Origin: Polaromonas sp. UBA4122
GTDB taxonomy: Bacteria > Pseudomonadota > Gammaproteobacteria > Burkholderiales > Burkholderiaceae_C
NCBI GenBank assembly: GCA_002381615.1
Contig: DFWY01000107.1
Location: forward strand, 1 to 34,294
Reading direction: 5' to 3'
Length of the DNA: 34,294 bases
The notes beneath the pieces were generated by a model, which saw only the letters and a list, made by a program, of their open reading frames with translations, was not told the origin of the DNA and did no database searches. Both the position numbers and the translations under genes were made by a program. How positions within the stretch are numbered: position 1 is the first letter of the stretch; every line of letters starts with the position of its first letter. Shown here in pieces: positions 2,466 to 31,217 of the stretch.

Positions 2466-3668
2466 ATGTTGACGCTTGACTCTCATCCTTCCGGCCGCCA
2501 TTTCCTGCAAATCCCCGGACCGACCAATGTCCCTGATCGGGTGCTGCGTGCGATTGACAACGTGACGATCGATCATCGCGGTCCCGAATTTGCCGTACTG
2601 GGCAAAGCGGTTCTGGCCGGTATGAAAAAAGTGTTCAAGACGCAAGCCGATGTCGTGATCTACCCGGCATCCGGCACCGGCGCCTGGGAAGCGGCGCTGG
2701 TCAATACCTTGTCGCCAGGCGACTTGGTGCTGATGGCCGAAACCGGACACTTTGCCTCGCTCTGGAAAAAAATGGCGAACAAACTGGGTCTCAAAGTGGA
2801 ATTCCTGCCGGGCGACTGGCGGCACGGTGCCGACCCTGCGCAGATCGAAGTTCGACTGGCCGACGACAAAGAGCATCAAATCAAGGCGGTGTGCGTCGTT
2901 CACAACGAAACCTCGACCGGCGTTACCAGCCCCATTGGCCAGATACGCCAGGCGATTGACCGTAGCGGCCATTCGGCGCTATTCATGGTGGACACGATTT
3001 CATCGCTGGCCTCGATCGATTACCGGCACGATGAATGGGGCGTTGATGTCACAGTTGCAGGCTCGCAAAAAGGCTTGATGCTGCCGCCCGGCTTGTCGTT
3101 CAACGCGATCAGCGCGAAGGCGCGCGCCGCCTCGAAAACGGCCGCACTGCCGCGTTCGTATTGGGATTGGGAAGAGATGCTCGCGGTCAATCCGACCGGC
3201 TATTTCCCGTACACGCCGGCCACCAATCTGCTGTATGGCTTGCATGAAGCGCTTGCAATGCTGTTCGAGGAAGGGCTGGACAATGTGTTCGCGCGCCATC
3301 ACCGCCATGGCGAGGCAACGCGTCGCGCGGTGCGCGCATGGGGGCTGGAGATTCTCTGCCTCAATCCTGCTGAATACAGTTCGGTGCTGACAGCGGTTGT
3401 GGTGCCGGACGGCCACAGCGCCGACGCGTTCCGCAAGATCGTGCTGGAGCGGTTCAACATGTCGCTCGGGCAGGGCTTGAGCAAGGTATCCGGCAAGATT
3501 TTCCGGATCGGCCATCTGGGCGATTTCAACGATTTGATGTTGTGCGGAACGCTGGCCGGCGTCGAAATGGGGCTCGGCCTGGCCGGTATCCCGCATCGAA
3601 ATGGAGGTGTACAGGCGGCGATGGACTATCTCGCGAAACCGCCCGACGCGATGTCCTCGCCAAGTTAA
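2466..3668 (+). CDS. Class V aminotransferase, serine/aspartate-glyoxylate aminotransferase type
   Basis: A PLP enzyme of fold type I that transfers an amino group from serine, alanine or aspartate to glyoxylate or a similar 2-oxo acid. Seen in the 400 residues: the N-terminal IPGPTNVP motif, ASGTGAWEA (cofactor phosphate region), VDTISS with Asp176 facing the PLP ring, and GSQKG with Schiff-base Lys202. From memory the sequence resembles both SgaA (serine-glyoxylate) and BhcA (aspartate-glyoxylate, beta-hydroxyaspartate cycle); conserved blocks include IDHR, HNETSTGV, GSQKGLMLPPGL, NVFARHHR and GKIFRIGHLGD. The substrate cannot be settled by eye. It is the first gene after the doubled operator and is followed 63 bases later by the TctC gene, so it probably heads the transporter operon. 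Confidence 0.87.
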   Translation: MLTLDSHPSGRHFLQIPGPTNVPDRVLRAIDNVTIDHRGPEFAVLGKAVLAGMKKVFKTQADVVIYPASGTGAWEAALVNTLSPGDLVLMAETGHFASLWKKMANKLGLKVEFLPGDWRHGADPAQIEVRLADDKEHQIKAVCVVHNETSTGVTSPIGQIRQAIDRSGHSALFMVDTISSLASIDYRHDEWGVDVTVAGSQKGLMLPPGLSFNAISAKARAASKTAALPRSYWDWEEMLAVNPTGYFPYTPATNLLYGLHEALAMLFEEGLDNVFARHHRHGEATRRAVRAWGLEILCLNPAEYSSVLTAVVVPDGHSADAFRKIVLERFNMSLGQGLSKVSGKIFRIGHLGDFNDLMLCGTLAGVEMGLGLAGIPHRNGGVQAAMDYLAKPPDAMSSPS

Positions 3669-16171: not shown

Positions 16172-17466
16172 CCGTCACGGTATTCCTCGTCAGCCTGCTG
16201 GCCGCCATGGCCGTTGGCATGCCCATTGCCTATGCCTTGCTCGTTTGCGGCGTGGCGCTCATGGGTTTTCTGGGGGCGACCAGCGGCCTGGTTACGTTTG
16301 ACAGCCAGATCCTGGCGCAGCGTTTTGTCGACGGCGCTGACAACTTCCCGCTGCTGGCGGTGCCCTTCTTCATGCTCGCCGGCGAATTCATGAACGCCGG
16401 CGGCTTGAGCCGGCGCATTGTCAATCTGGCCATGGCCTGGGTCGGCCATTTCCGGGGCGGTCTGGGTTATGTCACCGTGGTTGCCGCCGTGATCATGGCC
16501 TCGCTCTCGGGTTCCGCCGTGGCCGATACCGCAGCGCTTGCGGCCCTGCTTATTCCGATGATGCGGACAGCGGGCTACAACATCAACCGCTCCGCTGGCC
16601 TGATTGCGTCGGGCGGCATCATCGCCCCCGTTATTCCGCCCTCCATCGGGATGATTATTTTTGGGGTCGCGGGCAACGTCTCGATCACCAAGCTGTTTCT
16701 GGCCGGCATTGTCCCAGGGGTGCTGATGGGCGCTGCCGTCGGGCTGACCTGGTGGTGGGTGGCGAAAAAGGAAAAAGTTCAGCCTGCACCCAAACTTGCG
16801 ATACCGCTACGCCTGAAAATCACCGCTGAAGGAACCCTCGCCCTCGCCCTGCCCGTGATCATCATTGGCGGCATGAAACTGGGCGTGTTCACTCCCACCG
16901 AGGCGGCAGTGGTGGCGGCGGTTTACAGTTTTGCGGTGGGCATGTTTGTCTACCGCGAACTCAAATGGTCTGAGCTGTATCAGCTGGTGCTGACCGCAGG
17001 CAAGACGACGGCAGTGGTGATGTTTCTGGTGGGAGCGGCCATGGTCAGTGCCTGGCTCATCACGGTGGCCAACATTCCGACGGAAGTCGCCAACATGCTG
17101 GAGCCCTTCATGGGCAACAGGATGCTGCTGATGTTCATCATGATGGTGCTGATCGTGGTGGTTGGCACGGCGCTCGATTTCACGCCCACGGTGCTGATCC
17201 TCACGCCGGTGCTGATGCCTGTGGTGCTCAAGGCCGGGATCGATCCGGTTTACTTTGGCGTGTTGTTCATCATGAACAACGCCATCGGCCTGATCACACC
17301 GCCGGTGGGAACGGTGCTCAATGTCGTGTGTGGTGTTGCAAAAATTACCATGGACGACGCCTTCAAGGGCGTGCTGCCTTTCCTGCTGGCCCAGCTGGCC
17401 GTGCTTTTCCTGCTGGTTCTTTTTCCCCAAATCGTCACTGTGCCACTTCACTGGTGGATGCACTGA
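16168..17466 (+). CDS. dctM: TRAP transporter large membrane subunit (DctM)
   Basis: The large permease subunit that carries the substrate with sodium or proton coupling. The 432-residue protein is strongly hydrophobic with about 11-12 spans. DctM hallmarks include PLLAVPFFMLAGEFMNAGG, SLSGSAVADTAALAALLIPMM, IAPVIPPSIGMIIFG, FTPTEAAVVAAVY and GLITPPVGTVLNVV. GGGGA at 16156-16160 precedes the ATG. Its last 243 bases (17224-17466) are duplicated almost unchanged at 29566-29808. The dctP gene follows 59 bases later; that gap contains a tandem 10-mer, CGTCAATAGC, at 17481 and 17494. Confidence 0.93.
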   Translation: MTVTVFLVSLLAAMAVGMPIAYALLVCGVALMGFLGATSGLVTFDSQILAQRFVDGADNFPLLAVPFFMLAGEFMNAGGLSRRIVNLAMAWVGHFRGGLGYVTVVAAVIMASLSGSAVADTAALAALLIPMMRTAGYNINRSAGLIASGGIIAPVIPPSIGMIIFGVAGNVSITKLFLAGIVPGVLMGAAVGLTWWWVAKKEKVQPAPKLAIPLRLKITAEGTLALALPVIIIGGMKLGVFTPTEAAVVAAVYSFAVGMFVYRELKWSELYQLVLTAGKTTAVVMFLVGAAMVSAWLITVANIPTEVANMLEPFMGNRMLLMFIMMVLIVVVGTALDFTPTVLILTPVLMPVVLKAGIDPVYFGVLFIMNNAIGLITPPVGTVLNVVCGVAKITMDDAFKGVLPFLLAQLAVLFLLVLFPQIVTVPLHWWMH

Positions 17467-17525
17467 TGAGGCTTTTCCCGCGTCAATAGCAATCGTCAAT
17501 AGCTCTAACAACTAAAGGAAGCAAC

Positions 17526-18536
17526 ATGTTCAAACGAAGAACCCTCGTATCAGCCCTCGCCGGCGCAGCCCTGCTCGTCAGCACAGCGGCATTTGCGCAG
17601 TTTGCCGAGCGCACCATCAAGTTCACCAACGGCGTGGCCGAAGATCATCCGGTCGGGATGGGTGTCAAGAAAATGCAGGAAGTGCTCAATGCCAAGACCG
17701 GCGGCAAGATCAAGATCAATGCCTTCTGGAACAACGCGGCGGGTGGCGACCTGCAGGCCACGCAGGCACTGCGCGCGGGCACGCAGGAGATGGTGTGCAC
17801 CTCCAGCTCGCCGCTGGTGGGCATCATCAAGGAACTCGGCGTGTTTGACCTGCCTTTCCTGTTTGCCAACGAAAAAGAAGCGGATACCGTGCTGGATGGC
17901 CCGGCAGGCGCTTACTTCAACAAGAAACTCGAAGAAGCCGGTCTCGTCAATCTCGCTTATTGGGAAAACGGGTTTCGCAACCTGACCAACAACAAGCGCC
18001 CTGTGGCCAAAGTCGAAGACTTTGAGGGTATCAAGGTTCGCGTCATGCAGAACAGCATCTTCCTGGACACCTTCAAGACGCTGGGCACCAACGCCGTTCC
18101 GATGAACTTCGGCGAAGTGTTCACCGCGCTGGAAACCAAGACCATCGACGGTCAGGAAAACCCGTTCGTCACGATTGAAACGTCCAAGTTCAACGAGGTG
18201 CAAAAGTACCTGAGCGTGACGCGCCATGCCTACACGCCGTTTCTGATCCTCTACAGCAAAAAACTGTGGGACCAGCTCAATCCGCAAGAGCAGGCCGTGC
18301 TGCGCGAAGCCGCTATAGCGGGCCAGAAGGTGGAGCGTACCGCTCTTCGCGCGCAGTCGGAAAAATCGCTGGCCAGCCTGAAAGCCAAGGGCATGGTCGT
18401 CAACGAGATTACCCCGGCCGAGCAGGCCCGCATGTTTGCGAAGGTCAAGCCGGTGTATGACAAAAACCTGCCAACGATTGGTGCTGAGCCGGTCAACGTC
18501 GTGATGGATGCCCTGAAAAAGGTGCGCGGCCACTGA
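17526..18536 (+). CDS. dctP: TRAP transporter periplasmic binding protein (DctP), copy 1
   Basis: The periplasmic receptor of the TRAP system. The 336-residue product has a signal peptide (MFKRRTLVSALAGAALLV..AAFA, cleavage near residue 24) and the DctP fold. The ligand-site region IKVRVMQNSIFLDTFK contains the arginine that normally binds the substrate carboxylate, followed by MNFGEVFTALETKTIDGQEN. AAAGGAA at 17514-17520 is a strong Shine-Dalgarno. A hairpin terminator follows the stop by about 20 bases, which should leave dctP more abundant than the dehydratases downstream. Context with an FCD regulator and aldonate enzymes suggests an aldonate or uronate ligand. A paralogue lies at 29853. 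Confidence 0.93.
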   Translation: MFKRRTLVSALAGAALLVSTAAFAQFAERTIKFTNGVAEDHPVGMGVKKMQEVLNAKTGGKIKINAFWNNAAGGDLQATQALRAGTQEMVCTSSSPLVGIIKELGVFDLPFLFANEKEADTVLDGPAGAYFNKKLEEAGLVNLAYWENGFRNLTNNKRPVAKVEDFEGIKVRVMQNSIFLDTFKTLGTNAVPMNFGEVFTALETKTIDGQENPFVTIETSKFNEVQKYLSVTRHAYTPFLILYSKKLWDQLNPQEQAVLREAAIAGQKVERTALRAQSEKSLASLKAKGMVVNEITPAEQARMFAKVKPVYDKNLPTIGAEPVNVVMDALKKVRGH

Positions 18537-18557
18537 TTCAGTCTGTAGCATTGTGTG

Positions 18558-18591
18558 AAGGCCGCCAGGGGCAACCCTCGCGGCCTTTTTT
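18558..18591 (+). terminator. Rho-independent terminator after dctP copy 1
   Basis: Stem AAGGCCGC (18558-18565) pairs with GCGGCCTT (18580-18587); after one C/C mismatch, AGGG (18567-18570) pairs with CCCT (18575-18578) around a GCAA tetraloop, and a T run reaches 18591. It sits between dctP and the dehydratase of the same apparent operon, so partial termination is likely. Confidence 0.9.
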
Positions 18592-18618
18592 CGGCGTCTG
18601 TTTTCTGGAGTCTGAATT

Positions 18619-19830
18619 GTGAAAATCACCGAGATCGAAACCATTCGCCTGGGCGAGTTCCCCAACATCATCTGGGTGCGCATCCATACCGATGAGGGGC
18701 TGACCGGGCTGGGCGAAACCTTCATGGGCGCGGCAGCCGTGGAAGCCTATTTGCACGAATGGGCGGCGCCCAAGCTGCTGGGGCAGGACCCGCTGGCCAT
18801 CGAAGCGCGCAACCGCGACATCACCGGCTACCTGGGCTGGCGCGGCTCCGGTGTGGAAACGCGCGGCAACTCGGCCGTGGACATTGCGCTGTGGGATATT
18901 TTTGGCAAGGCTGCCAATATGCCGGTGCACACCGCCCTGGGTGGCAAGAGCCGCGACGCCATTCGCATCTACAACACCTGCGCCGGCTACCAGTATGTGC
19001 GCAGCACTGTCAACCAGAACACGGCGAACTGGGGCCTGGGTTCTGCCAGGGACAAAAATGCCGGGCCTTACGAAGACCTGGAAGGCTTTTTGCACCGTGC
19101 CGATGAGGTCGCGCAGTCGCTGCTGTCCGAAGGCATCACGGCCATGAAGATCTGGCCGTTTGACCCCGCTGCGGAAAAAAGCCATGGCCAGTACATCAGC
19201 AATGAAGATCTGGATGCCGCGCTGGAGCCTTTTCGCAAGATTCGCAACGCCGTCGGCGACAAGATGGACATCATGGTGGAGTTTCACAGCTTGTGGCGCT
19301 TGCCCATGGCGCAAAAAATCGCGCGTGCGCTCAAGCCCTTCAACACCTTCTGGCACGAAGACGCCATCCGCATGGATTCGTTGGACCTGCTCAAGCAATA
19401 CGCCAAAGATTGCGAGGCCCTGATTTGCGCCAGTGAAACGCTGAGCTACAAATGGGGCTTCAAGGACTATTTGCAAACCGGCGTGGCCGGGGTGGCCATG
19501 TTGGACCTGAGCTGGTGCGGCGGACTGACCGAAGCGCGCAAAATTGCCGCCATGGCCGACGCGTGGCAGTTGCCGGTGGCGCCGCACGACTGCACCGGGC
19601 CGGTGGTCTGGGCGGCGTCGACGCACTTGTCGCTGCACGCACCCAACGCGCTGATCCAGGAGAGCGTTCGCGCTTTCTTCACGGGCTGGTATAAGGAACT
19701 GGTGACCGAATTGCCCAGCGTGAAAAATGGCATGATCAGTCTCAATGACAAGCCCGGGCTTGGACTGGAGTTGCTGCCTGATCTGCACAAGCGCGCGGAT
19801 GCCACGGTGCGGATCTCGGTGCCGGATTAA
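18619..19830 (+). CDS. Enolase-superfamily acid-sugar dehydratase, galactonate dehydratase-like active site
   Basis: A mandelate-racemase-subgroup enzyme expected to dehydrate an aldonate to its 2-keto-3-deoxy acid using a divalent metal. The 403-residue protein has the capping domain (about 1-115) and barrel. Metal ligands are Glu221, Glu247 and Glu273, each 26 residues apart, with His223 two residues after the first ligand and His323 in PHDCTGP. This matches the GalD pattern (D183, E209, E235, H185, H285) in spacing, with Glu for Asp at the first ligand. There is no KxK motif, so the base/acid pair is histidine-type. It starts with GTG at 18619, behind the same TTCTGGAGTCT ribosome-binding sequence as dctQ. 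A decayed copy exists at 30936-31217. The exact sugar acid is unknown. Confidence 0.87.
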
Positions 19831-22582: not shown

Positions 22583-23554
22583 ATGCGAAAACGTTTCCTG
22601 TTGCTCACTCTTGTCCTTGCTGCGCTGGCGACCGTGTCGATGCCGGGCCTGGCGGCCTATCCCGACAAGCCAATCCGCCTGATCGTGCCGTCGGGCGCTG
22701 GCGGCGCCCCCGACGTACTGATGCGCACATTGGCCCTGCAGCTGTCGCAGCAGATGGGCGTGCCTTTCGTGATCGACAACAAGCCCGGTGGCTCGTACAC
22801 GATTGGCACCATGGACCTGGTTCACTCTCCGGCCGACGGCTATACGCTGGCCTACGGCAACGTCGTCTCGTTGGCCACCAACCGCTCGCTCCTGGCCAAC
22901 GTGCCTTACGACGTGGACAAGGACCTGACGCTGATCTCGAACACGCTGCGCCTGGTCAACCTGATGATCGTGAACAACAGCCTGCCGGTCAAAACCGTGC
23001 CCGAGCTGATCGCCTATGCCAAGAAGAATCCGGGCAAGCTGGCCTTCGCCTCGGACGGTAATGGCACCACCGCCCACCTGGGGATGGAGCTCTTCAAATC
23101 CATGACCGGCACCTACATGCTGCATGTGCCCTACCGCGCGGTGACGGCGGCTATGACCGACCTTATCGGCGGCAGCGTTCAGCTCATGATGGTCAACACG
23201 CCGGTGTCCGGTCCGCAAGTTCAGGCGGGCCGGGTGCGGGCCCTGGGTATTTCGTCCAGCCAGCGCTCGCCCGCCTACCCTGACATTCCCACCATTGCCG
23301 AATCTGGCGTGCCGGGCTTCGAGGTGGTGGCCTGGGGTGGCATTATCGGGCCGGCCAACATGCCTAAGGACATCGTGACCCGTCTCAATGCCGAAATTCG
23401 TACCGCGCTGGCCAGTCCGGCGGTGCGCGAGCGCTTCAAGGCGCTGGGTGCGGAGACTGTCCCCAGCACGCCGGAGGAATTCCGTGAGCTCGCGCGTCGC
23501 GAGACGGTCAAATGGGCCAAGGTCGTCAAGTTCTCGGGCGCAAAGATCGATTGA
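22583..23554 (+). CDS. Bug/TctC-family periplasmic binding protein (orphan)
   Basis: A 323-residue extracytoplasmic receptor with a signal peptide (MRKRFLLLTLVLAALATVS.., cleavage near GLA at residue 24-25) and the Bug fold: YPDKPIRLIVPSGAGGAPDVLMR, DNKPGGSYTIGTMDLVHSPADGYTL, HVPYRAVTAAMTDLIGGSVQ. GGAGG at 22570-22574 supports the ATG at 22583. No TctA/TctB genes are adjacent, as is common for Bug proteins in Burkholderiales. It may share the TctAB pair at 4792-6867 or act as a sensor. It is followed 37 bases later by a D-hydroxyaspartate-aldolase-like gene, so its ligand may feed that enzyme. Confidence 0.9.
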   Translation: MRKRFLLLTLVLAALATVSMPGLAAYPDKPIRLIVPSGAGGAPDVLMRTLALQLSQQMGVPFVIDNKPGGSYTIGTMDLVHSPADGYTLAYGNVVSLATNRSLLANVPYDVDKDLTLISNTLRLVNLMIVNNSLPVKTVPELIAYAKKNPGKLAFASDGNGTTAHLGMELFKSMTGTYMLHVPYRAVTAAMTDLIGGSVQLMMVNTPVSGPQVQAGRVRALGISSSQRSPAYPDIPTIAESGVPGFEVVAWGGIIGPANMPKDIVTRLNAEIRTALASPAVRERFKALGAETVPSTPEEFRELARRETVKWAKVVKFSGAKID

Positions 23555-23591
23555 AAGGCACCCGGATTTCCCCAATGAGCCCCGTTCACCC

Positions 23592-24707
23592 ATGAGCCCC
23601 TGGCCAGCCGCACGACCCGGCGATCACCTCAGCGCGGTCGATACGCCCGCGCTAATTCTTGACCTCGATGCGTTCGAGCGCAATCTGGAACGCATGGCTG
23701 CGGCGCTGCGCGGGAGTAACGTGCGCCTGCGTGCCCATGCCAAGAGCCACAAGTGTCCGCAGATTGCCTTGCGTCAGGTGGCGCTGGGTGCGGTTGGCAT
23801 CTGCTGCCAGAAGGTCAGCGAGGCGGCTGTGTTTGTGGAGGCCGGCATCAAGGATGTTCTGGTTACCAACGAGGTGATGGGAGACATCAAGCTGCGCCAT
23901 CTGGTCGCACTGGCGCGCACCGCACGCATTGGCGTGTTGGTCGATCACCCGCAGCAGGTGCAGGCGCTGGCCGCTGCGGTGCAGGCGCAGGCGGTGACGC
24001 TGGATGTCTATGTCGAGGTCAATGTGGGTGCAAACCGCTGCGGTGTTGCCCCCGGAGAGGAGGCGGTGCAGCTGGCGCGGCAGATTGCGGCCAATCCGCC
24101 GCTGCGTTTTGCAGGCCTGCAGTGCTACCACGGCCAAGCCCAGCATCTGCGCGCGCCGCAGGACCGCGCTACGGCCATTGGCAGCGCCGTTGAGGCCGCG
24201 CGGGTGACCCGACAAGCCATTGAGGGCTGCGGTATCACCGTCGAACGTGTGACGGGTGCGGGTACCGGCAGCTTTGTGCATGAGCGCGACTCTGGTGTCT
24301 TCAACGAAATCCAGGCCGGTTCCTATGTCTTCATGGATCGCGACTATGGCGACAACCAGCGTGGTGAAGGTGACATCGCGTTCGAGCATGCCCTGTTCGT
24401 GCGCACCACCGTCATGAGCCGGACTACCGCTGCGCGCGCCGTGGTTGACGCCGGCCTGAAGGCGTCCAGCGTGGACTCGGGCCTGCCCACCGTGTGGCAG
24501 CGAGCTGATCTGCGCTATGTGAAAGCCGCCGACGAGCATGGTGTGCTGAGTACCGCCGATGCTGCCACGGTGGCGCTGGGCGACCCACTGATGCTGGTGC
24601 CTGGTCATTGCGACCCGACCGTCAATCTTTATGACGAACTGGTCTGCGTGCGCGGCGAGTTAGTCGAGGCCATCTGGCCGATTGCCGCGCGCGGCGCGCT
24701 GCTGTGA
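23592..24707 (+). CDS. D-3-hydroxyaspartate/D-threonine aldolase-like PLP enzyme (BhcC-like)
   Basis: A fold type III PLP enzyme of the DSD1/D-threonine aldolase family; 371 residues. The PLP lysine is expected at Lys51 (AHAKSHKC). The metal site near the C-terminus reads PGHCDPT, placing His339 and Asp341 as the His-x-Asp pair found in D-threonine and D-3-hydroxyaspartate aldolases. From memory it shares long blocks with Paracoccus beta-hydroxyaspartate aldolase (BhcC): GICCQKVSEA, IKDVLVTNEV, GAGTGSF, VVDAGLKASSVDSGLP, DEHGV and LVPGHCDPT. Expected reaction: D-hydroxyaspartate to or from glycine + glyoxylate, or D-threonine-type cleavage. The ATG at 23592 is chosen from homology; it lies 37 bases after the Bug gene. 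Confidence 0.85.
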   Translation: MSPWPAARPGDHLSAVDTPALILDLDAFERNLERMAAALRGSNVRLRAHAKSHKCPQIALRQVALGAVGICCQKVSEAAVFVEAGIKDVLVTNEVMGDIKLRHLVALARTARIGVLVDHPQQVQALAAAVQAQAVTLDVYVEVNVGANRCGVAPGEEAVQLARQIAANPPLRFAGLQCYHGQAQHLRAPQDRATAIGSAVEAARVTRQAIEGCGITVERVTGAGTGSFVHERDSGVFNEIQAGSYVFMDRDYGDNQRGEGDIAFEHALFVRTTVMSRTTAARAVVDAGLKASSVDSGLPTVWQRADLRYVKAADEHGVLSTADAATVALGDPLMLVPGHCDPTVNLYDELVCVRGELVEAIWPIAARGALL

Positions 24708-24786
24708 ATCCGGGGGTGTTCGGTGAGGTCGTGCAGGGTTTGGTTTTCATTACCCGGAGCGCGCGGCGGAGTTGCAGGTCAAGGCC

Positions 24787-24930
24787 ATGAGTTGCAACAG
24801 GCTACTGCGGCTGGTTCTTGACGACATCGCAAAAAGAACGGTGAAGCAGTTCGGACGTGAACGCGAGCACTGGACACGGCTGCATCTTGATGCGCTGCGT
24901 CGCAAGCTCGATCACGAACGTCCCGAGTAG
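24787..24930 (+). CDS. Short unrecognised ORF, probable gene remnant
   Basis: A 47-residue frame (MSCNRLLRLVLDDIAKRTVK and on to DHERPE), rich in Arg/Lys/His. The frame stays open upstream to about 24730 (HYPERAAELQVKAM), so it looks like the C-terminal end of a longer, lost protein. The family was not recognised. It fills most of the 261-base gap between the aldolase and the 3-hydroxyisobutyrate-dehydrogenase-like gene, and may mark another decayed insertion. Confidence 0.3.
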   Translation: MSCNRLLRLVLDDIAKRTVKQFGREREHWTRLHLDALRRKLDHERPE

Positions 24931-24968
24931 GCAGGCTGATTGGAAAAGAAACTATGAAAGGAATGGAC

Positions 24969-25874
24969 ATGTCTGGCAAAAGAAAACTTGGCTTTATCGG
25001 TGTGGGACTGATGGGGCACGGCTTGGCAAAAAATTTGCTCAAGCAGGGGCACGCCATGACCCTGCTTGAGCATCCGGGCAACCAGCCTGTCGATGACTTG
25101 ATAAAAATGGGGGCTCAAACGGTTGCGACCCCCAAAGAGGTGGCTGCGGCTGCCGATGTGGTGTTTATGTGTGTCACCGGATCGCCCCAGGTTGAAGCTT
25201 GTGTCTACGGTGCGGATGGTCTTTTGGAAGGCTTGCGGGCGGGGAGCATTGTCGTGGATGGCACGACGGCAGACCCTGTGTCGACGGTCAAAGTGGCGGC
25301 TGCGGTGCAGGCGCGAGGCGGACGTTATGTCGATGCCCCGATGACCCGTACCTCCCAGCATGCCGAAGATGGCTGTGTCAATGCCATGCTCGGTGGAGAT
25401 GCCGCAACGATTGCGGAGGTCCGACCGCTGATTGAAGCCTACGCCGAAAATATCTTCGTCGGTGGTGAGGTCGGTTCCGGCCATCGCATGAAGTTGCTGC
25501 ACAACTACATTTCTCTGGGCACCTTGGCCTTGCTGGCTGAGGCCTATACCTGCGCCGGCAAGGCCGGGATCGACCGCAAAGTTCTGACCGAGGTGCTGGC
25601 AACCGGAGGGGGCGACAGCGTTGTCCTCAAACGCCTGATGCCATTTCTCGACAGCGGGGAGCCTGGAAGCATGTTGTTCTCCTTGATCAATGCGGGCAAG
25701 GACCTGCGGTACTTCACCCACATGGCAGAAGAGCTTCAGGTCGGTGCCTTTGTCGGCGAGGCGGTTCATCAGACCTTTGTCACCGCTTCGAATGTGGGCG
25801 GCGGCGAAAAAATGATTCCCGAACTGCTCAACATTCTGTGTCGCATGCATGGCGCGCCACTCTGCGGCAAATAA
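24969..25874 (+). CDS. 3-hydroxyisobutyrate dehydrogenase-family (beta-hydroxyacid) oxidoreductase
   Basis: A 301-residue NAD(P)-dependent beta-hydroxyacid dehydrogenase. It has an N-terminal Rossmann domain with GFIGVGLMG (residues 8-16), the substrate block VDAPMTRTSQHAEDG where relatives have DAPVSGG, and an all-helical C-terminal domain with the catalytic lysine Lys175 in GHRMKLLHN. The changed substrate block suggests a ligand other than 3-hydroxyisobutyrate, for example tartronate semialdehyde or another C3-C4 beta-hydroxyacid. I start it at 24969 because AAGGA at 24957-24961 fits; in-frame ATGs at 24954 and 24963 are possible. It heads a tight four-gene run with the D-aminoacylase, DSD1 and reductase genes. 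Confidence 0.87.
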   Translation: MSGKRKLGFIGVGLMGHGLAKNLLKQGHAMTLLEHPGNQPVDDLIKMGAQTVATPKEVAAAADVVFMCVTGSPQVEACVYGADGLLEGLRAGSIVVDGTTADPVSTVKVAAAVQARGGRYVDAPMTRTSQHAEDGCVNAMLGGDAATIAEVRPLIEAYAENIFVGGEVGSGHRMKLLHNYISLGTLALLAEAYTCAGKAGIDRKVLTEVLATGGGDSVVLKRLMPFLDSGEPGSMLFSLINAGKDLRYFTHMAEELQVGAFVGEAVHQTFVTASNVGGGEKMIPELLNILCRMHGAPLCGK

Positions 25875-25900
25875 AAAACTTTTCAACTCAAAGGCCCCTG

Positions 25901-27367
25901 ATGCAGGAAAATTTTGACCTTCTGATTCGCAACGCAAGCATCGTCGATGGTACGGGCGCGCCCCGTTTCACGGGTGATATCGGCATTCGTGGCGACCGCA
26001 TCGCGCGTATCGGCGATCTCTCAAAGCTGCGCGGCGAGGTGGAAGTCGATCTGGCGGGTCGCATTGCGGCACCGGGTTTCATCGACGCGCACACCCACGA
26101 CGATCGCCTCATGCTGTCCAACCCCGACATGGCGCCCAAGGTCAGCCAGGGTGTGACCACGGTGATCGGCGGCAATTGCGGCATTTCGCTGGCACCGATG
26201 CCGCGCCCCATTCCCAATCCGGTCACGCCGCCGCTGAATCTGCTAGATGACCAGGGGGGCTGGTTTCACTTCCCCACGTTTTCGTCCTACATCGATGAGT
26301 TGCGCGCCAAGCCCGCCGCCACCAACTGCGCCATGCTGGTGGGGCACACCACTTTGCGCGTGGCCACCATGGATGACCTGACGCAGCCGGCGAGTACGGC
26401 CGAAATCGGCGCCATGCGCGAACTGGTCGACGAGGCCATGCGCGCGGGCGCCATCGGCGTGTCCACCGGGTTGTTCTATGAGCCGGCGATTGCCGCGCCC
26501 ACTGAGGAGGTGATCGAGATCTGCCGACCGCTCAAGAAATTCAACGGCATGTATTGCACCCACATGCGCGACGAGGCGGATCGGGTGATCGACTCGCTGG
26601 AGGAAAGCTTTCGCATCGGCCGCGAGGTGGGGGTGCCGGTGGTGATCTCGCACCACAAGCTGGTGGGGCAGGCGAATTATGGCCGCTCCAAGGAAACGCT
26701 GTCCTTCATCGAAAAAAACATGGCCAAGCAGGCGATCTGCCTGGACTGCTATCCCTACACGGCCGGCTCCACCATCCTGTCCGCTGACCGGGCGGCAACT
26801 TCCACACGCGTCATTGTCAGCTGGTCGAAAGCGCTGCCTGAGTATGCCGGCCAAGACCTGGCCGATATCGCGCAAAAAATGGGAGTACCCCAGGAGGAGG
26901 CAGTTCGGCGCCTGAGCCCCGCCGGTGCGATCTACTTCAGGATGGACGAGGCCGATGTGCAGCGCATCCTGAAGTTCGACCAGACCATGATCGGCTCCGA
27001 CGGCCTGCCGCATGATGCGGCACCGCATCCGCGGCTGTGGGGAAGTTTTCCGCGCGTGCTGGGCCACTATGGACGCCTGCTCGGGCTTTTCCCGCTGGAG
27101 ACCGCCGTGCACAAGATGACCGGACTGACGGCGAAGAACTTCGGCCTGCGGGACCGGGGCGTCTTGAGGGAAGGGGCATACGCCGACTTGACCCTGTTCG
27201 ATGCGGACACGGTGGACGAGGTCGCCACCTATGAGAAGCCCATCGCGCCGGCACGCGGTATCGACACGGTGATTGTCAATGGCGCCATTGTCTGGCGCGA
27301 TGGACGGCCGACGGGCGCGCGGCCCGGGCGGGTACTTACGCGTGAAACGCAAGACACGGGGAACTGA
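25901..27367 (+). CDS. N-acyl-D-amino-acid deacylase (D-aminoacylase family amidohydrolase)
   Basis: A zinc amidohydrolase that releases D-amino acids from N-acyl-D-amino acids; 488 residues, normal length. Seen: the beta-strand leader LLIRNASIVDGTGAPRFTGD, His64-x-His66 in DAHTHDD, GGNCGISLAP with Cys93 (the D-aminoacylase-specific metal ligand), STGLFYEPA, CTHMRDE, ISHHKLVGQANYGRS and the essential Asp367 in SDGLPHDAAPHPRLWG. AAAGG at 25890-25894 precedes the ATG. It begins 26 bases after the dehydrogenase gene and ends one base before the next start, so co-expression with the D-amino-acid-directed DSD1 enzyme is nearly certain. Side-chain preference is unknown. Confidence 0.9.
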   Translation: MQENFDLLIRNASIVDGTGAPRFTGDIGIRGDRIARIGDLSKLRGEVEVDLAGRIAAPGFIDAHTHDDRLMLSNPDMAPKVSQGVTTVIGGNCGISLAPMPRPIPNPVTPPLNLLDDQGGWFHFPTFSSYIDELRAKPAATNCAMLVGHTTLRVATMDDLTQPASTAEIGAMRELVDEAMRAGAIGVSTGLFYEPAIAAPTEEVIEICRPLKKFNGMYCTHMRDEADRVIDSLEESFRIGREVGVPVVISHHKLVGQANYGRSKETLSFIEKNMAKQAICLDCYPYTAGSTILSADRAATSTRVIVSWSKALPEYAGQDLADIAQKMGVPQEEAVRRLSPAGAIYFRMDEADVQRILKFDQTMIGSDGLPHDAAPHPRLWGSFPRVLGHYGRLLGLFPLETAVHKMTGLTAKNFGLRDRGVLREGAYADLTLFDADTVDEVATYEKPIAPARGIDTVIVNGAIVWRDGRPTGARPGRVLTRETQDTGN

Positions 27368-27368
27368 G

Positions 27369-28508
27369 ATGCCGAAACAAGTTCTGGAACAGCTGGAAAC
27401 ACCCGCGCTGATTCTTGATGAGGCGCGGATGGACCGCAACATCGAGCGTATGCGCAGCCATCTGCGCCGCCTGAATGTGACCTTCCGTCCTCACGTCAAG
27501 ACCAACAAATGCATGGACGTGGCGCGTCGACTCATGGAAACACCGCAAGGTCCGATCACGGTCTCCACCCTGCTGGAGGCCGAGTATTTCGCGGCGCACG
27601 GGGTCAAAGACATCCTGTACGCCGTCTGCATCGCGCCGAACAAGCTGGACCATGTGATGGCCCTGCAGGACAAGGGGGTGCGGCTGTTGCTCCTTCTGGA
27701 CAGCATGGAGACCGCCCGGATTCTGGCCGAGCGTGCCAAGGCGGCGCGGCATCCCTTCAACGTCCTTATCGAGATCGATTCGGACGGTCACCGTTCGGGC
27801 GTGAGGCCCGACGCTGCCGAGTTGGTCGAGATCGGCCAGTTCCTCGAGGGCGCCGGCATTACGGTGAAGGGGGTGCTCACCCATGCCGGAAGTTCCTACG
27901 ACTGCCCATCCGTGGCCGCGATTCGCGCCATGGCCGAGCAGGAGCGTGACGCGGTCGTTCATGCGGCCGATCGGCTGCGCGCGGCGGGCATGGCGTGCCC
28001 GGTGGTTAGCATGGGCTCGACGCCGACCGCGCTGTTCGCCGAGCATCTGGAGGGCGTGACGGAGGTGCGTGCCGGCGTGTTCGTCTTCTTCGATCTGGTA
28101 ATGGCCGGCCTGAATGTCTGCCGGTTGGACGACATCGCCCTGTCGGTCCTGACCACGGTGATCGGGCATCAGCGCGAAAAAGGCTGGACCATTCTTGATG
28201 CCGGGTGGATGGCCATGTCACGCGACCGTGGCACGGCCAAACAGCCAGTGGACCAGGGTTACGGCGTCGTCTGCGACCTTGATGGCCAGCCGTTGGACGA
28301 CTTCATTCTGGTGGGCGCCAACCAGGAGCACGGCATCATGGCGCACCGATCCGGCAAGGTGGACAGCGCGCTGCACCTGCCTGTGGGCAGCCAGGTTCGG
28401 ATCCTGCCCAACCATGCCTGTTCCACCGCAGCGCAGTATGGTCATTACAACGTGCTGGGATCCGGTCACGAGATCACGGCGTCCTGGCAGCGTTTCAGCG
28501 GCTGGTAA
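27369..28508 (+). CDS. DSD1-family PLP enzyme, D-serine/D-hydroxyaspartate dehydratase-like
   Basis: A second fold type III PLP enzyme, 379 residues, only distantly similar to the BhcC-like aldolase at 23592. PLP lysine expected at Lys44 (RPHVKTNKC; the family more often has KTHK). The C-terminal metal motif is NHACST, with His349-x-Cys351, the zinc pair of eukaryotic-type D-serine dehydratase, unlike the His-x-Asp of aldolases. Dehydratases of this family act on D-serine and D-threo-3-hydroxyaspartate, giving an imino acid that hydrolyses to pyruvate or oxaloacetate. It follows the D-aminoacylase stop by one base and is followed 19 bases later by an iminosuccinate-reductase-like gene, which fits an imino product captured by reduction. 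Confidence 0.87.
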   Translation: MPKQVLEQLETPALILDEARMDRNIERMRSHLRRLNVTFRPHVKTNKCMDVARRLMETPQGPITVSTLLEAEYFAAHGVKDILYAVCIAPNKLDHVMALQDKGVRLLLLLDSMETARILAERAKAARHPFNVLIEIDSDGHRSGVRPDAAELVEIGQFLEGAGITVKGVLTHAGSSYDCPSVAAIRAMAEQERDAVVHAADRLRAAGMACPVVSMGSTPTALFAEHLEGVTEVRAGVFVFFDLVMAGLNVCRLDDIALSVLTTVIGHQREKGWTILDAGWMAMSRDRGTAKQPVDQGYGVVCDLDGQPLDDFILVGANQEHGIMAHRSGKVDSALHLPVGSQVRILPNHACSTAAQYGHYNVLGSGHEITASWQRFSGW

Positions 28509-28527
28509 AGCCAGAAAGGAAGACGAC

Positions 28528-29499
28528 ATGTTGGTCATTTCCGAAGAGGACGCTCGCGTCCTGGTGAGCGTTGAAAGCGCCATCGCCGCGGTCGAAAAAA
28601 CCTTCGCCGCCATGGCGCGCGGCGAAGCCCGTAATTACCCTGTCGTGCGCGAGGTGGTGGGCTATCAGGATGCTGTTTTCGGCGTCAAGACTGGCTGTGA
28701 CACCAGTGCTCCCATTCTTGGCCTCAAGGCGGGCGGTTACTGGCCCCATAATTTGGCAAAGGGGTTGACCAATCACCAGTCTTCGACCTTGCTGTTCGAT
28801 CCGGAAACGGGCCGCGCCTCGGCGCTGGTCAGCGCCAACTACCTGACCGGGGTGCGCACCGGAGCAGCCAGCGCCATCGCCACCAAGTATCTGTCACGCC
28901 CCGACAGCACCGTGCTCGGCATCATCGGCACCGGCGCCCAATCGGCATACCAGTTGCGCGCTACCCTGGCCGTGCGCCCCATCCGCAAGGTCTACGCCTG
29001 GGACCCCTCTCTGGAAAATATCGCGACTTTCGGCCGCATAGTGGCGGAACTTGGACTGGAGTACGCCCCCCAAACCGACTGTCAGGCGGTGGCGGTCAAC
29101 GCCGACATTCTGATCACCGTGACGCCCTCGCAACGTGCCTTGGTAGAAAAATCCTGGGTGCGCGCCGGCACCCATGTCAGCGCCATGGGGGCCGACACCA
29201 AGGGCAAGCAGGAATTGGATCCCGCCTTGGTGGCAAGTGCCGCCTTGTTTGTGGATGAGACCGCACAGGCCATCACCATCGGCGAATGCCAGCATGCCTA
29301 TAACGCCGGGTTGATCACGGCGCAGAGCTTGCGCGGCAGCATCGGAGAGGTCATCGCAGGGTTCTGCGATGGACGGCGTACAGCACAGGAAATCACCCTC
29401 TTCGATGGCACCGGTGTGGCCTTGCAGGACCTGGTGGTGGCCGACCTCGCCCTGCGCCTGGCCGCAGAGCTGGGCCTTGGCTCCCGCGTCGAGTATTAG
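28528..29499 (+). CDS. Ornithine cyclodeaminase/mu-crystallin family, iminosuccinate reductase (BhcD)-like
   Basis: A 323-residue NAD(P)-dependent imine reductase/deaminase-fold protein. It has the family Rossmann motif VLGIIGTGAQSAYQLRA, plus blocks that I recall from Paracoccus BhcD (iminosuccinate reductase): NYPVVREVVGYQDAVFGVK, LGLKAGGYWPHN, NHQSSTLLFDPETGR, AMGADTKGKQELDPALVA, IGECQHA and FDGTGVALQDL. BhcD makes L-aspartate from iminosuccinate with NADH. Ordinary ornithine cyclodeaminases lack the GGYWPNN-type block, so I prefer an imino-acid reductase role. AAAGGA at 28515-28520 gives a clear start. It ends the D-amino-acid run; a broken dctM copy begins 66 bases after its stop. Confidence 0.85.
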   Translation: MLVISEEDARVLVSVESAIAAVEKTFAAMARGEARNYPVVREVVGYQDAVFGVKTGCDTSAPILGLKAGGYWPHNLAKGLTNHQSSTLLFDPETGRASALVSANYLTGVRTGAASAIATKYLSRPDSTVLGIIGTGAQSAYQLRATLAVRPIRKVYAWDPSLENIATFGRIVAELGLEYAPQTDCQAVAVNADILITVTPSQRALVEKSWVRAGTHVSAMGADTKGKQELDPALVASAALFVDETAQAITIGECQHAYNAGLITAQSLRGSIGEVIAGFCDGRRTAQEITLFDGTGVALQDLVVADLALRLAAELGLGSRVEY

Positions 29500-29565: not shown

Positions 29566-29808
29566 GTGCTCAAGGCCGGGATCAATCCGGCTTACTTTGG
29601 CGTGTTGTTCGTCATGAACAACGCCATCGGCCTGATCACACCTCCGGTGGGCACGGTGCTCAATGTCGTGTGTGGTGTGGCAAAAATCACCATGGACGAC
29701 GCCTTCAAGGGCGTGCTGCCCTTCCTGGTGGCCGAGCTGGTCGTGCTTTTCCTGCTGGTTCTTTTTCCCCAGATCGTCACAGCGCCACTTCATTGGTGGA
29801 TGCACTGA
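29566..29808 (+). pseudogene. Truncated dctM copy (last 80 codons)
   Basis: VLKAGINPAYFGVLFVMNNA through to PLHWWMH matches the end of the intact DctM (17224-17466) at protein and DNA level, with a few substitutions and the same stop. An ATG at 29506 opens the frame but codes unrelated residues before the homology. About 81% of the gene is missing, so it cannot form a permease. It marks the left edge of the duplicated block. Confidence 0.9.
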
Positions 29809-29852
29809 CAAATTTTCCCCAACCCCTGTCATTTATATTTAAGGAGACAACC

Positions 29853-30863
29853 ATGTTTAAACGCAGAACCCTCGTATCAGCCCTCGCCGGCGCCGCCTTG
29901 CTGGTGGCGACTTCAGCCTTCGCCCAGTACGCCGAGCGAACCATCAAGTGGACCAACGGCGTGAACGAAGACCACTCAGTCGGACTGGGCGTCAAGAAGA
30001 TGCAGGAGGTGCTTAATGCCAAGACCGGCGGCAAGATCAAGATCAATGCTTTCTGGGGCGGCTCCGCGGGTGGTGACCTTGCTGGTGCCCAGGCTACGCG
30101 TGCGGGTACGCAAGAGATAGTGTGCACATCCGGCTCGGCCTTGATGGGTATCGTCAAGGAACTGGGCGCGTTCGACCTGCCGTTTCTGTTTGCCAACGAA
30201 CAAGAAGCCTACACCGTGCTGGACGGTCCGGCTGGAAAGTACTTCAACAAGAAGCTTGAAGAAGCTGGCCTTGTCAATCTGGCCTACTGGGAAAATGGCT
30301 TTCGCAACTTGACCAATAGCAGGCACGCGGTTAGCAAAATCGAAGACTTTGACGGCTTGAAAATACGTGTCATGCAGAACAGCATTTTTCTCGACACGTT
30401 CAAGACACTGGGTGCCAACCCGACGCCGATGGCCTTTGGGGAAGTATTCACCGCGCTGGAAACCAAGGCCATCGATGGCCAGGAAAACCCCTTTTCCACG
30501 ATCGAGACAGGCAAACTCTATGAGGTCCAGAAGTATTTGACGGTGACTCGTCATGCGTACTCACCCTTCTTTGTGCTTTACAGCAAAAAGCTGTGGGATC
30601 AGCTCAACCCGCAGGAGCAGGCCGTGCTGCGTGAAGCGGCACTGGAAGGGCAGACGGTCCAGCGCGATGCAAGCCGCGCGCAGGATGCTAAGTCATTCGC
30701 CATCCTCAAGGCACGGGGTATGGTGGTCAATGATATTTCTCCTGCAGAGAAGGCCCGCATTATTGCCAAGCTAAAGCCGGTTTATGACAAGCATGTGCCC
30801 ACTATCGGCGCTGAGGCTGTTAACGTTGTGCTGAATGCCCTGAAAAAGGCGCGCGGCGGCTGA
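29853..30863 (+). CDS. TRAP transporter periplasmic binding protein (DctP), copy 2
   Basis: A 336-residue paralogue of the DctP at 17526, collinear without gaps, with a nearly identical signal peptide (cleavage near AFA, residue 24) and the conserved IRVMQNSIFLDTFK and ETKAIDGQENP blocks. AAGGAG at 29841-29846 is a better Shine-Dalgarno than copy 1 has, and the leader is different. The frame is intact while its neighbours on both sides are broken, which suggests selection to keep it. No DctQ/DctM pair belongs to it locally; it could use the permease at 15582-17466. Differences from copy 1 include WTNGVNEDHSVG for FTNGVAEDHPVG, GGSAGGDLAGAQ for NNAAGGDLQATQ, and NPTPMAFGEV for NAVPMNFGEV. Confidence 0.92.
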   Translation: MFKRRTLVSALAGAALLVATSAFAQYAERTIKWTNGVNEDHSVGLGVKKMQEVLNAKTGGKIKINAFWGGSAGGDLAGAQATRAGTQEIVCTSGSALMGIVKELGAFDLPFLFANEQEAYTVLDGPAGKYFNKKLEEAGLVNLAYWENGFRNLTNSRHAVSKIEDFDGLKIRVMQNSIFLDTFKTLGANPTPMAFGEVFTALETKAIDGQENPFSTIETGKLYEVQKYLTVTRHAYSPFFVLYSKKLWDQLNPQEQAVLREAALEGQTVQRDASRAQDAKSFAILKARGMVVNDISPAEKARIIAKLKPVYDKHVPTIGAEAVNVVLNALKKARGG

Positions 30864-30888
30864 TCCAGTCCGTAGCACTGTTTGATGC

Positions 30889-30921
30889 AAGGCCGCCAGG
30901 GGCAACCCTCGCGGCCTTTTT
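30889..30921 (+). terminator. Rho-independent terminator after dctP copy 2
   Basis: The same hairpin as at 18558: AAGGCCGC (30889-30896) with GCGGCCTT (30911-30918), AGGG/CCCT inner stem, GCAA loop, T run to 30921. The stem-loop is unchanged although the bases on both sides differ from copy 1, so it is probably still functional. Confidence 0.9.
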
Positions 30922-30935
30922 CCGAGGCTCAATTG

Positions 30936-31217
30936 GAGATGCACGGTTCGAAGCCATCCGCCTGGGCGAGTGTCCCAACATCATCTGGGTGCGTCTGCAC
31001 ACTGACCGCGCTGGGTAGCAAAAGCCGCGATGCCATCCGCATGGACAGCCTCGATCTGCTCAAACAGCATGCGAAGGACTGCGAAGCCCTGATCTGAGTC
31101 AGTGAAACGCTGCGCCACAAATGGGACTTCAAGGACTATCTGCAGACGGGTGTGGCCATGCTCGACCTGAGCTGGTGCAGCGGCCTCACCGAGGCGCGCA
31201 AGATTGCCGGCATGGCC
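30936..31217 (+). pseudogene. Collapsed copy of the GalD-like dehydratase gene
   Basis: About 280 bases match three separate parts of the intact gene at 18619-19830: its first ~70 bases, a short piece from about 18931-18968, and about 19360-19557. Joins lie near 31006 (ACCG shared) and at 31030-31043, where the parent has GACGCCATTCGCAT at 18955 and GACGCCATCCGCAT at 19360. A further 9-base deletion and an in-frame TGA (in CTGATCTGAGTCAG, parent CTGATTTGCGCCAG) are present. The remainder of the gene after 31217 is absent. No function is possible as an enzyme. Confidence 0.88.

Follow-up and report, generated by a model that had tools for sequence, protein, structure and literature searches.

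Dehydration of hydroxyaspartate is known from the beta-hydroxyaspartate cycle of Paracoccus denitrificans, where it is carried out by BhcB, a pyridoxal phosphate (PLP) enzyme of fold type II, and from Delftia, whose dehydratase gives oxaloacetate and ammonia as end products. Residues of D-beta-hydroxyaspartate occur in lipopeptides and siderophores, and the chemistry of EutB and EutC offers a precedent for the coupling of a PLP dehydratase to an enzyme of the ornithine cyclodeaminase (OCD) family. Here we analyse a contig of Polaromonas sp. UBA4122 (DFWY01000107.1, 34,294 nucleotides, hereafter the window), which is contig C8 of a draft genome of 4.17 Mb in 172 contigs, 99.8% complete. At 22583–29499 of its forward strand lie seven consecutive genes or gene remnants, from a TctC receptor through a BhcD-like reductase. 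The last three, a D-aminoacylase, a dehydratase of the DSD1 family and the reductase itself, form a tight trio, and it is the function of this trio that is considered below.

Based on sequence comparison we propose, with a probability of roughly 0.6, that the trio serves a linear salvage of 3-hydroxy-D-aspartate, leading from N-acyl-D-hydroxyaspartate through D-hydroxyaspartate and iminosuccinate to L-aspartate, the substrate isomer being most likely D-threo (2R,3R). A solute receptor would import N-acylated or peptide-derived 3-hydroxy-D-aspartate, and the D-aminoacylase (25901–27367) would liberate the D-amino acid. The dehydratase (27369–28508), as a fold-type III enzyme with PLP and metal, would eliminate the 3-hydroxyl as water to give iminosuccinate or its enamine, which the reductase (28528–29499) would convert with NAD(P)H into L-aspartate. 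Nitrogen would thus be retained and the stereocentre inverted, instead of ammonia and oxaloacetate being released.

The dehydratase and its companion reductase

The protein encoded at 27369–28508 (+, 379 amino acids) has both Pfam domains of its family, Ala_racemase_N and D-ser_dehydrat, and the motif PNHACST (HxC), which bears out the dehydratase metal signature noticed by an earlier reading made from the sequence alone. Its best solved relative is the D-threo-3-hydroxyaspartate dehydratase of Delftia (PDB 3wqc; 410 bits, 53% identity), the sequence of which also has HxC; two deposited variants of the Delftia enzyme differ at this His or Cys. K44 aligns with a lysine kept in every row compared and is probably the PLP lysine. 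Both quick trees placed 27369 in one group with Delftia 3wqc and Idiomarina 3llx (SH-aLRT 92), in a subclade separate from 3wqc. All 43 sequences compared, and 3wqc as well, share five basic residues (in window numbering Arg193, Lys/Arg285, Arg287, Arg344 and Arg375), none of which is present in chicken D-serine dehydratase. According to PMC8071972, the Delftia enzyme takes the D-threo (2R,3R) and L-erythro isomers and is inhibited by D-erythro; from this assignment we deduce that D-erythro is (2R,3S), and the label (2S,3S) given there to L-erythro, which does not fit the deduction, is taken as a slip. If 27369 behaves like its Delftia relative, D-threo-hydroxyaspartate should be its likelier substrate. 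Removal of the D-erythro isomer is ascribed in the same source to mouse serine racemase, 35% identical to a Pseudomonas D-erythro dehydratase.

The dehydratase stop codon ends at 28508, and 19 bases further the ATG at 28528 opens the gene of a BhcD-like imine reductase of the OCD family (28528–29499, +, 323 amino acids), the proposed iminosuccinate reductase forming L-aspartate; here too the sequence-only reading proved accurate. In comparison with PDB entries the iminosuccinate reductase 6rqa scored 321 bits, an archaeal alanine dehydrogenase 193 bits and ornithine cyclodeaminase 1u7h 83 bits, and identity as an ornithine cyclodeaminase, which would have spoken against the earlier reading, was rejected on these values. 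Identity to BhcD of the Paracoccus cycle is about 50%, and the EutC model gave 196 bits with a cut-off of 472. Judged by the reductase, the host stands nearest, among named organisms, to Polaromonas, Rhodoferax and other Comamonadaceae. Few genomes of the host's GTDB family have the gene: at E≤1e-60 it was found in 3 of 399, and one of the three copies is only 41% identical. Upstream, a single base separates the deacylase stop, with its end at 27367, from the dehydratase ATG, and the spacing of 1 and 19 bases in the trio suggests a single transcript. ATG starts were confirmed at 2466, 23592, 27369 and 28528, three of which begin further upstream in the longest-frame list; a scan for promoters was uninformative, with 3 sites where shuffled sequences gave 2.2 on average.

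Conservation of the pair was estimated by searching 84,980 species genomes for two short peptides of the reductase, a pattern-based procedure that reaches close relatives and is not exhaustive. From the 48 loci registered, two bhc clusters (L077, L078), a fragment of 130 residues on a 3.2 kb contig (L079) and an Azospirillum locus with 46% identity (L080) were dropped before counting. The 44 core loci, two of which (L025 and L064) apparently come from the same genome, were taken with flanks of up to 10 kb (at least 9 kb on both sides in 26 of them), and their genes were counted by tblastn. Their reductases are 64–94% identical and belong to Comamonadaceae, Rhizobiales, Rhodobacterales and Halomonas. 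A DSD1 dehydratase was found within the stretch examined in 42 of the 44, which is more than chance: directly upstream on the same strand in 19 loci (gap 12–43 nucleotides), directly downstream on the other strand in 8 (24–64 nucleotides) and at 5–9 kb in 15. The contigs of the remaining two are too short to settle the matter. That of L067 has 3.0 kb, and that of L051 begins 4.8 kb upstream of the reductase, where in loci of its type the dehydratase ends about 6.5 kb upstream; a different DSD1-like gene with no readable HxC lies 3.3 kb downstream in L051. HxC could be read in 41 of these dehydratases, the exception being that of L042, which is cut at the contig edge, as well as in the window, L021 and L025. 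The pair is kept across differing arrangements and two dehydratase lineages. Five loci (L046, L066, L070, L072, L074) have an extra, distant DSD1-like gene, its motif being non-HxC or unread. BhcB was found in none of the 44 core loci within the stretches examined. As a control, a DSD1 hit (E<1e-3) was present in none of five other OCD-family loci (L022, L029, L030, L031, L080), and the DSD1 hits seen in eight bhc-type loci fall on BhcC.

A second case of such pairing came from the dehydratase side. Of 299 genomes examined in the host's GTDB family, 37 have a dehydratase of the D-threo type; 30 loci were fetched, and after the window and a further genome, G477, had been set aside, 28 others remained with flanks of about 1.5 kb. 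Seven of these adjoin a different OCD-family reductase, 35–40% identical to 28528. The blocks (F/Y)P(V/L)(V/I)RE, GxKxG and HQ are common to the seven reductases, BhcD and 28528, and alanine dehydrogenase 1omo lacks them. Five of the seven loci also hold a fold-type II gene, lying side by side with the OCD reductase and the D-threo-type dehydratase (L155:4016–7021, L156, L157, L158, L160). The three fold-type II genes that were scanned (L155, L157, L160) pass the NCBIfam cut-off for threo-3-hydroxy-L-aspartate ammonia-lyase (569–576 bits against 452) and are L-threo-hydroxyaspartate ammonia-lyases by this model, and clusters of the L155 type look like a salvage of several hydroxyaspartate stereoisomers. 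Apart from this, a third BhcD-like subfamily was noticed on a plasmid of Azospirillum brasilense (L022:7153–8984, 331 bits on BhcD); the gene adjoins those of an alpha/beta hydrolase and an ATP-binding cassette (ABC) transporter, and neither a DSD1 nor a BhcB hit was found in the 16.9 kb.

The deacylase and the surroundings of the trio

The D-aminoacylase that heads the trio (25901–27367, +), a proposed N-acyl-D-(hydroxy)aspartate deacylase, had been passed over by the sequence-only reading. It scored 609 bits against PDB 1m7j and 445 bits against PpOngB, and copies 75–91% identical are present in 18 of the 44 core loci. The pocket of AfDam is described in PMC12017989 as Phe191, Met254, Leu298 and Met346, and BbDam is said there to have an Arg in place of Leu298, which binds the gamma-carboxylate of D-Glu. 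By alignment, the corresponding residues of 25901 are Phe191, Val254, Ala298 and Arg346, which do not match the hydrophobic pocket of AfDam (F191/M254/L298/M346); the Arg thus appears to stand at another site than that of BbDam, with its neighbours made smaller. Arg346 is present in 17 of the 19 core deacylases aligned (L033 was omitted because of a broken hit). A survey of 250 genomes of the host's GTDB family gave 44 with a match; in the 30 loci fetched Arg346 is found three times (the window, G477 and G581) and is absent from the other 27, in the short flanks of which the dehydratase/reductase pair was not found. The pocket Arg adds independent evidence on the substrate, and together with the kinship of the other two enzymes to 3wqc and 6rqa it points to a C4-acid. 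A second D-aminoacylase of the host genome (L027, G000:C61:27552–30353; pocket F/A/D/Q) has a DSD1-domain gene about 1 kb away and is perhaps another N-acyl-D-amino acid unit.

Three architectures can be distinguished among the relatives. In Comamonadaceae (A) TctC and the D-threonine aldolase type stand first, in some loci with a class II aldolase and a dehydrogenase behind them; deacylase, dehydratase and reductase come next, and in some loci genes of a tripartite ATP-independent periplasmic (TRAP) transporter follow. In one Ramlibacter and one Hydrogenophaga genome (B) deacylase, dehydratase and reductase are preceded by aldehyde dehydrogenase, a peptide ABC transporter and a class II aldolase. 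In Alphaproteobacteria and Halomonas (C) aldehyde dehydrogenase, a LysR regulator and an M81 peptidase accompany reductase and dehydratase, often with sugar-type ABC genes. A deacylase was registered in 20 of the 44 core loci, 18 of these copies being close and 2 divergent, and 22 loci have an M81 peptidase; one locus has both hydrolases and three have neither, two of the latter being short. Such a distribution suggests an exchange of the amide hydrolase. Two further proteins recur near the pair: one without a Pfam or NCBIfam match (L021:12987–14195), whose group is found in 20 compared loci, often near the pair, and a small RidA-like protein recognised by eye in Rhodobacteraceae (L066, L070, L074, L076), which could hydrolyse the same imine.

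In the window the seven-gene series starts with a TctC/Bug-type periplasmic solute receptor (22583–23554, +; Pfam TctC 222 bits), which may serve substrate capture; its homologues (74–90% identity) occur in 16 core loci, the same 16 that have a full aldolase. Behind the aldolase gene (23592–24707, see below) follow a class II aldolase remnant and a dehydrogenase. The former (24739–24930, +) retains the C-terminal part, 66% identical by tblastn, from 24748, to a gene of L025 (7785–8522), and is longer in relatives (L025, L033, L035, L036, L037, L064, L075). The latter (24954–25874, +; Pfam NAD_binding_2 and NAD_binding_11) resembles 3-hydroxyisobutyrate/tartronate-semialdehyde reductases, with a best NCBIfam score of 168 bits, under the cut-off; it is present in 6 of the 44 core loci and is regarded as accessory. 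Downstream of the trio, a TRAP solute receptor DctP (29853–30863, +; Pfam DctP 298 bits) is possibly an uptake component of the cluster, by analogy with L033, L036 and L037, where DctQ, DctM and DctP are placed downstream of the reductase. It lies inside a partly decayed duplicate: 29566–30993 and 31029–31217 repeat 17224–18680 and 19360–19557 with 78–79% identity and contain the end of TRAP DctM, DctP and a mandelate-racemase-like gene, so that the cluster at 22.5–29.5 kb stands between the copies.

Competing explanations

The linear route is favoured by the linkage of the pair in 42 of 44 loci, the HxC motif with the basic residues, the nearest solved relatives, the deacylase pocket, the second case of pairing and the precedent of EutB/EutC. 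The sequence-only reading had also brought a dehydratase supplying iminosuccinate to the reductase, leaving open a cycle or a linear pathway. The linear version turned out to be the best explanation, and a variant beta-hydroxyaspartate cycle is not supported. In such a cycle the product of 23592 would condense glycine and glyoxylate, and 27369, 28528 and 2466 would replace BhcB, BhcD and BhcA. Homologues of all four activities are indeed in the window. The BhcA-like class V aminotransferase at 2466–3668 (400 amino acids), reported earlier, has a confirmed frame and is the only strong BhcA match in the genome (463 bits, cut-off 650), some 26 kb from the reductase; in the core-locus flanks BhcA gave one hit of 152 bits, and these flanks are too short to show such a gene at that distance. 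As to 23592–24707 (+, 371 amino acids), considered BhcC-like before, it does reach 427 bits on the BhcC model, under the cut-off of 690, but groups with D-threonine aldolases apart from BhcC (SH-aLRT 98, quick tree), and against PDB it scored 382 bits with 7dib, 353 with 4v15 and 338 with BhcC 6qkb. Its motif PGHCDPT (HxD) suggests an aldolase, since His347 and Asp349 are the metal ligands of the D-threonine aldolase of Alcaligenes (PMC4401734). Copies 71–90% identical occur in just 16 of the 44 loci, or 17 if a copy truncated at the stretch end is included, and the enzyme is regarded as accessory; in the Comamonadaceae form it may be a second outlet, converting one diastereomer into glycine and glyoxylate. 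The product of BhcC is (2R,3S)-hydroxyaspartate (PMC8307300), and the mismatch with the substrate of the closest characterised dehydratase likewise counts against a cycle, in which, moreover, the D-aminoacylase has no evident role. The absence of BhcB, claimed before for the window, extends to the whole 4.17 Mb genome (best hit 230 bits, cut-off 550), where no complete bhc cluster was seen. A BhcB score above the cut-off was obtained for 4 of the 44 core genomes, as it was for both bhc controls; the four genes lie outside the fetched locus of the pair, with BhcA beside all four and BhcC beside three (the fourth stretch ends there), which indicates that the two systems coexist. Hits of 339–353 bits to the BhcB model in seven further genomes approximate the range of three L-threo-hydroxyaspartate lyases (340–354). 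Taken together, these data make the cycle very improbable.

Hardly more probable is a catabolism of N-acetyl-D-glucosaminate or N-acetyl-D-serine/threonine to a keto acid, 2-keto-3-deoxygluconate (KDG) or pyruvate, as in the Ong pathway, with the reductase used otherwise. The match of the deacylase to PpOngB and a DgoK-like kinase with a 2-keto-3-deoxy-6-phosphogluconate aldolase-like gene, recognised by eye at 10.3–11.9 kb of the window, agree with it, as does OngC, which deaminates GlcN1A, D-Ser and D-Thr as a PLP enzyme of fold type III (PMC9537276). But the OngB pocket is Ala193, Ala256, Gln298 and Gly348 (PMC12017989), unlike the Phe/Val/Ala/Arg set of 25901, and keeping a reductase with the dehydratase would be pointless if the imine were simply hydrolysed. 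Less improbable, though still unlikely, is the same chemistry with another acidic or amidated 3-hydroxy-D-amino acid, for instance 3-hydroxy-D-glutamate or hydroxyasparagine, giving the respective L-amino acid. The pocket Arg merely suggests an acidic side chain, the kinship to BhcD is distant enough for another imino acid, and hydroxyasparagine is a substrate of a related dehydratase from yeast (PMC8071972). Against this substitution speaks that among solved structures the two core enzymes come closest to a hydroxyaspartate dehydratase and an iminosuccinate reductase, and that the fold-type II gene in the five clusters described above is an L-threo-hydroxyaspartate ammonia-lyase where scanned.

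Several observations weigh against the linear salvage of 3-hydroxy-D-aspartate itself. The score of 28528 on the NCBIfam BhcD model (401 bits) is under the cut-off of 500, and 28528 and its relatives fall outside a separate clade (100/100) made up of the BhcDs of bhc clusters; one of these BhcDs, from Paracoccus denitrificans, does not differ from 6rqa in the region compared. The deepest branch order of window-type reductases, BhcD and Azospirillum OCDs differs between trees, the window group being one side of a branch in the smaller tree (85/94) and not in the large one; only six columns are common to BhcD and window-type reductases and absent from four other OCDs, which is not decisive. The three blocks were picked after viewing the alignment and are also found in the OCDs of Azospirillum (L022, L080) and mostly in that of G695 (L020), so that by themselves they are no proof of the substrate; around the OCDs of L022, L080 and L030 a DSD1 hit was not found in the stretches examined. 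An OCD hit is absent from the flanks of 21 of the 28 other D-threo-type dehydratases, and when wider regions were taken for 18 of the 28, with all seven positive loci among them, none of the other 11 had an OCD neighbour; evidently the dehydratase alone needs no reductase. One fold-type III enzyme, OngC, takes D-serine and D-threonine (PMC9537276). The dehydratase of Alphaproteobacteria and Halomonas is of another lineage, 42–47% identical to 27369, and the M81 peptidase, sugar-type ABC, short-chain dehydrogenase/reductase and epimerase genes near it could mean a different substrate there. On the hydrolase side, L021, L051 and L053 have a divergent deacylase without Arg346, L069 has neither deacylase nor M81 peptidase within 10 kb, and in G581 an Arg346 deacylase has no dehydratase/reductase pair beside it. 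The latter belongs to a small cluster (L120:8556–12175) of TctC, D-threonine aldolase type and deacylase, with neither a dehydratase nor a BhcD-like gene within 19.5 kb; elsewhere in this genome there are a D-threo-type dehydratase and weaker OCDs. Such an arrangement fits an aldolase outlet for the same deacylase.

Relation to described systems

In open-licence literature, as far as titles and beginnings of abstracts show, a DSD1 or D-threo-hydroxyaspartate dehydratase is not joined with an OCD/BhcD-type reductase. We tentatively suggest, at somewhat short of even odds, that a widespread and undescribed pathway of Comamonadaceae, Rhizobiales, Rhodobacterales and Halomonas converts N-acylated or peptide-bound D-beta-hydroxyaspartate into L-aspartate by a fold-type III dehydratase and a dedicated iminosuccinate reductase. 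If so, hydroxyaspartate dehydratase and BhcD-type reductase would make up a general module that arose repeatedly with differing dehydratases, and the marine glycolate cycle would be a specialised instance of it. D-threo-3-hydroxyaspartate dehydratase would acquire a physiological partner and a pathway, and BhcD-type reductases would be placed outside the glycolate cycle, with the caution that not every BhcD-like gene should be taken as evidence of this cycle. The route also offers a testable way of consumption of hydroxyaspartate-containing natural products and a stereo-inverting D-to-L conversion for biocatalysis, a field in which BhcD is treated in PMC11876095.

The module of PLP dehydratase and OCD-family reductase is known as such, and the linear D-hydroxyaspartate route would be its new version. 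With BhcB, BhcC and BhcD of Paracoccus denitrificans it shares dehydration of hydroxyaspartate and imine reduction to L-aspartate by a BhcD-type enzyme; however, BhcB acts on the (2R,3S) isomer, and here the dehydratase is of fold type III, BhcB is absent, BhcC is not conserved and a deacylase is present instead. The dehydratase of Delftia sp. HT23 (3wqc) is similar to 27369 in its DSD1 family, HxC site and wider tree group, but it was studied as a single enzyme, while 27369 has an imine reductase and a deacylase linked to it. OngB and OngC of the oxidative chitin pathway present the same succession of a D-aminoacylase-like deacetylase and a fold-type III PLP deaminase; a RidA protein (OngD) and a KDG kinase are also used there, no imine reductase being named in the part of PMC9537276 relied on here. 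In gene pairing, hydroxyectoine catabolism serves as a precedent (PMC13188858): EutB and EutC, acting in the utilisation of 5-hydroxyectoine, are likewise a PLP dehydratase and its OCD-family partner within one catabolic cluster, although EutB is of the threonine-dehydratase type and has another substrate.

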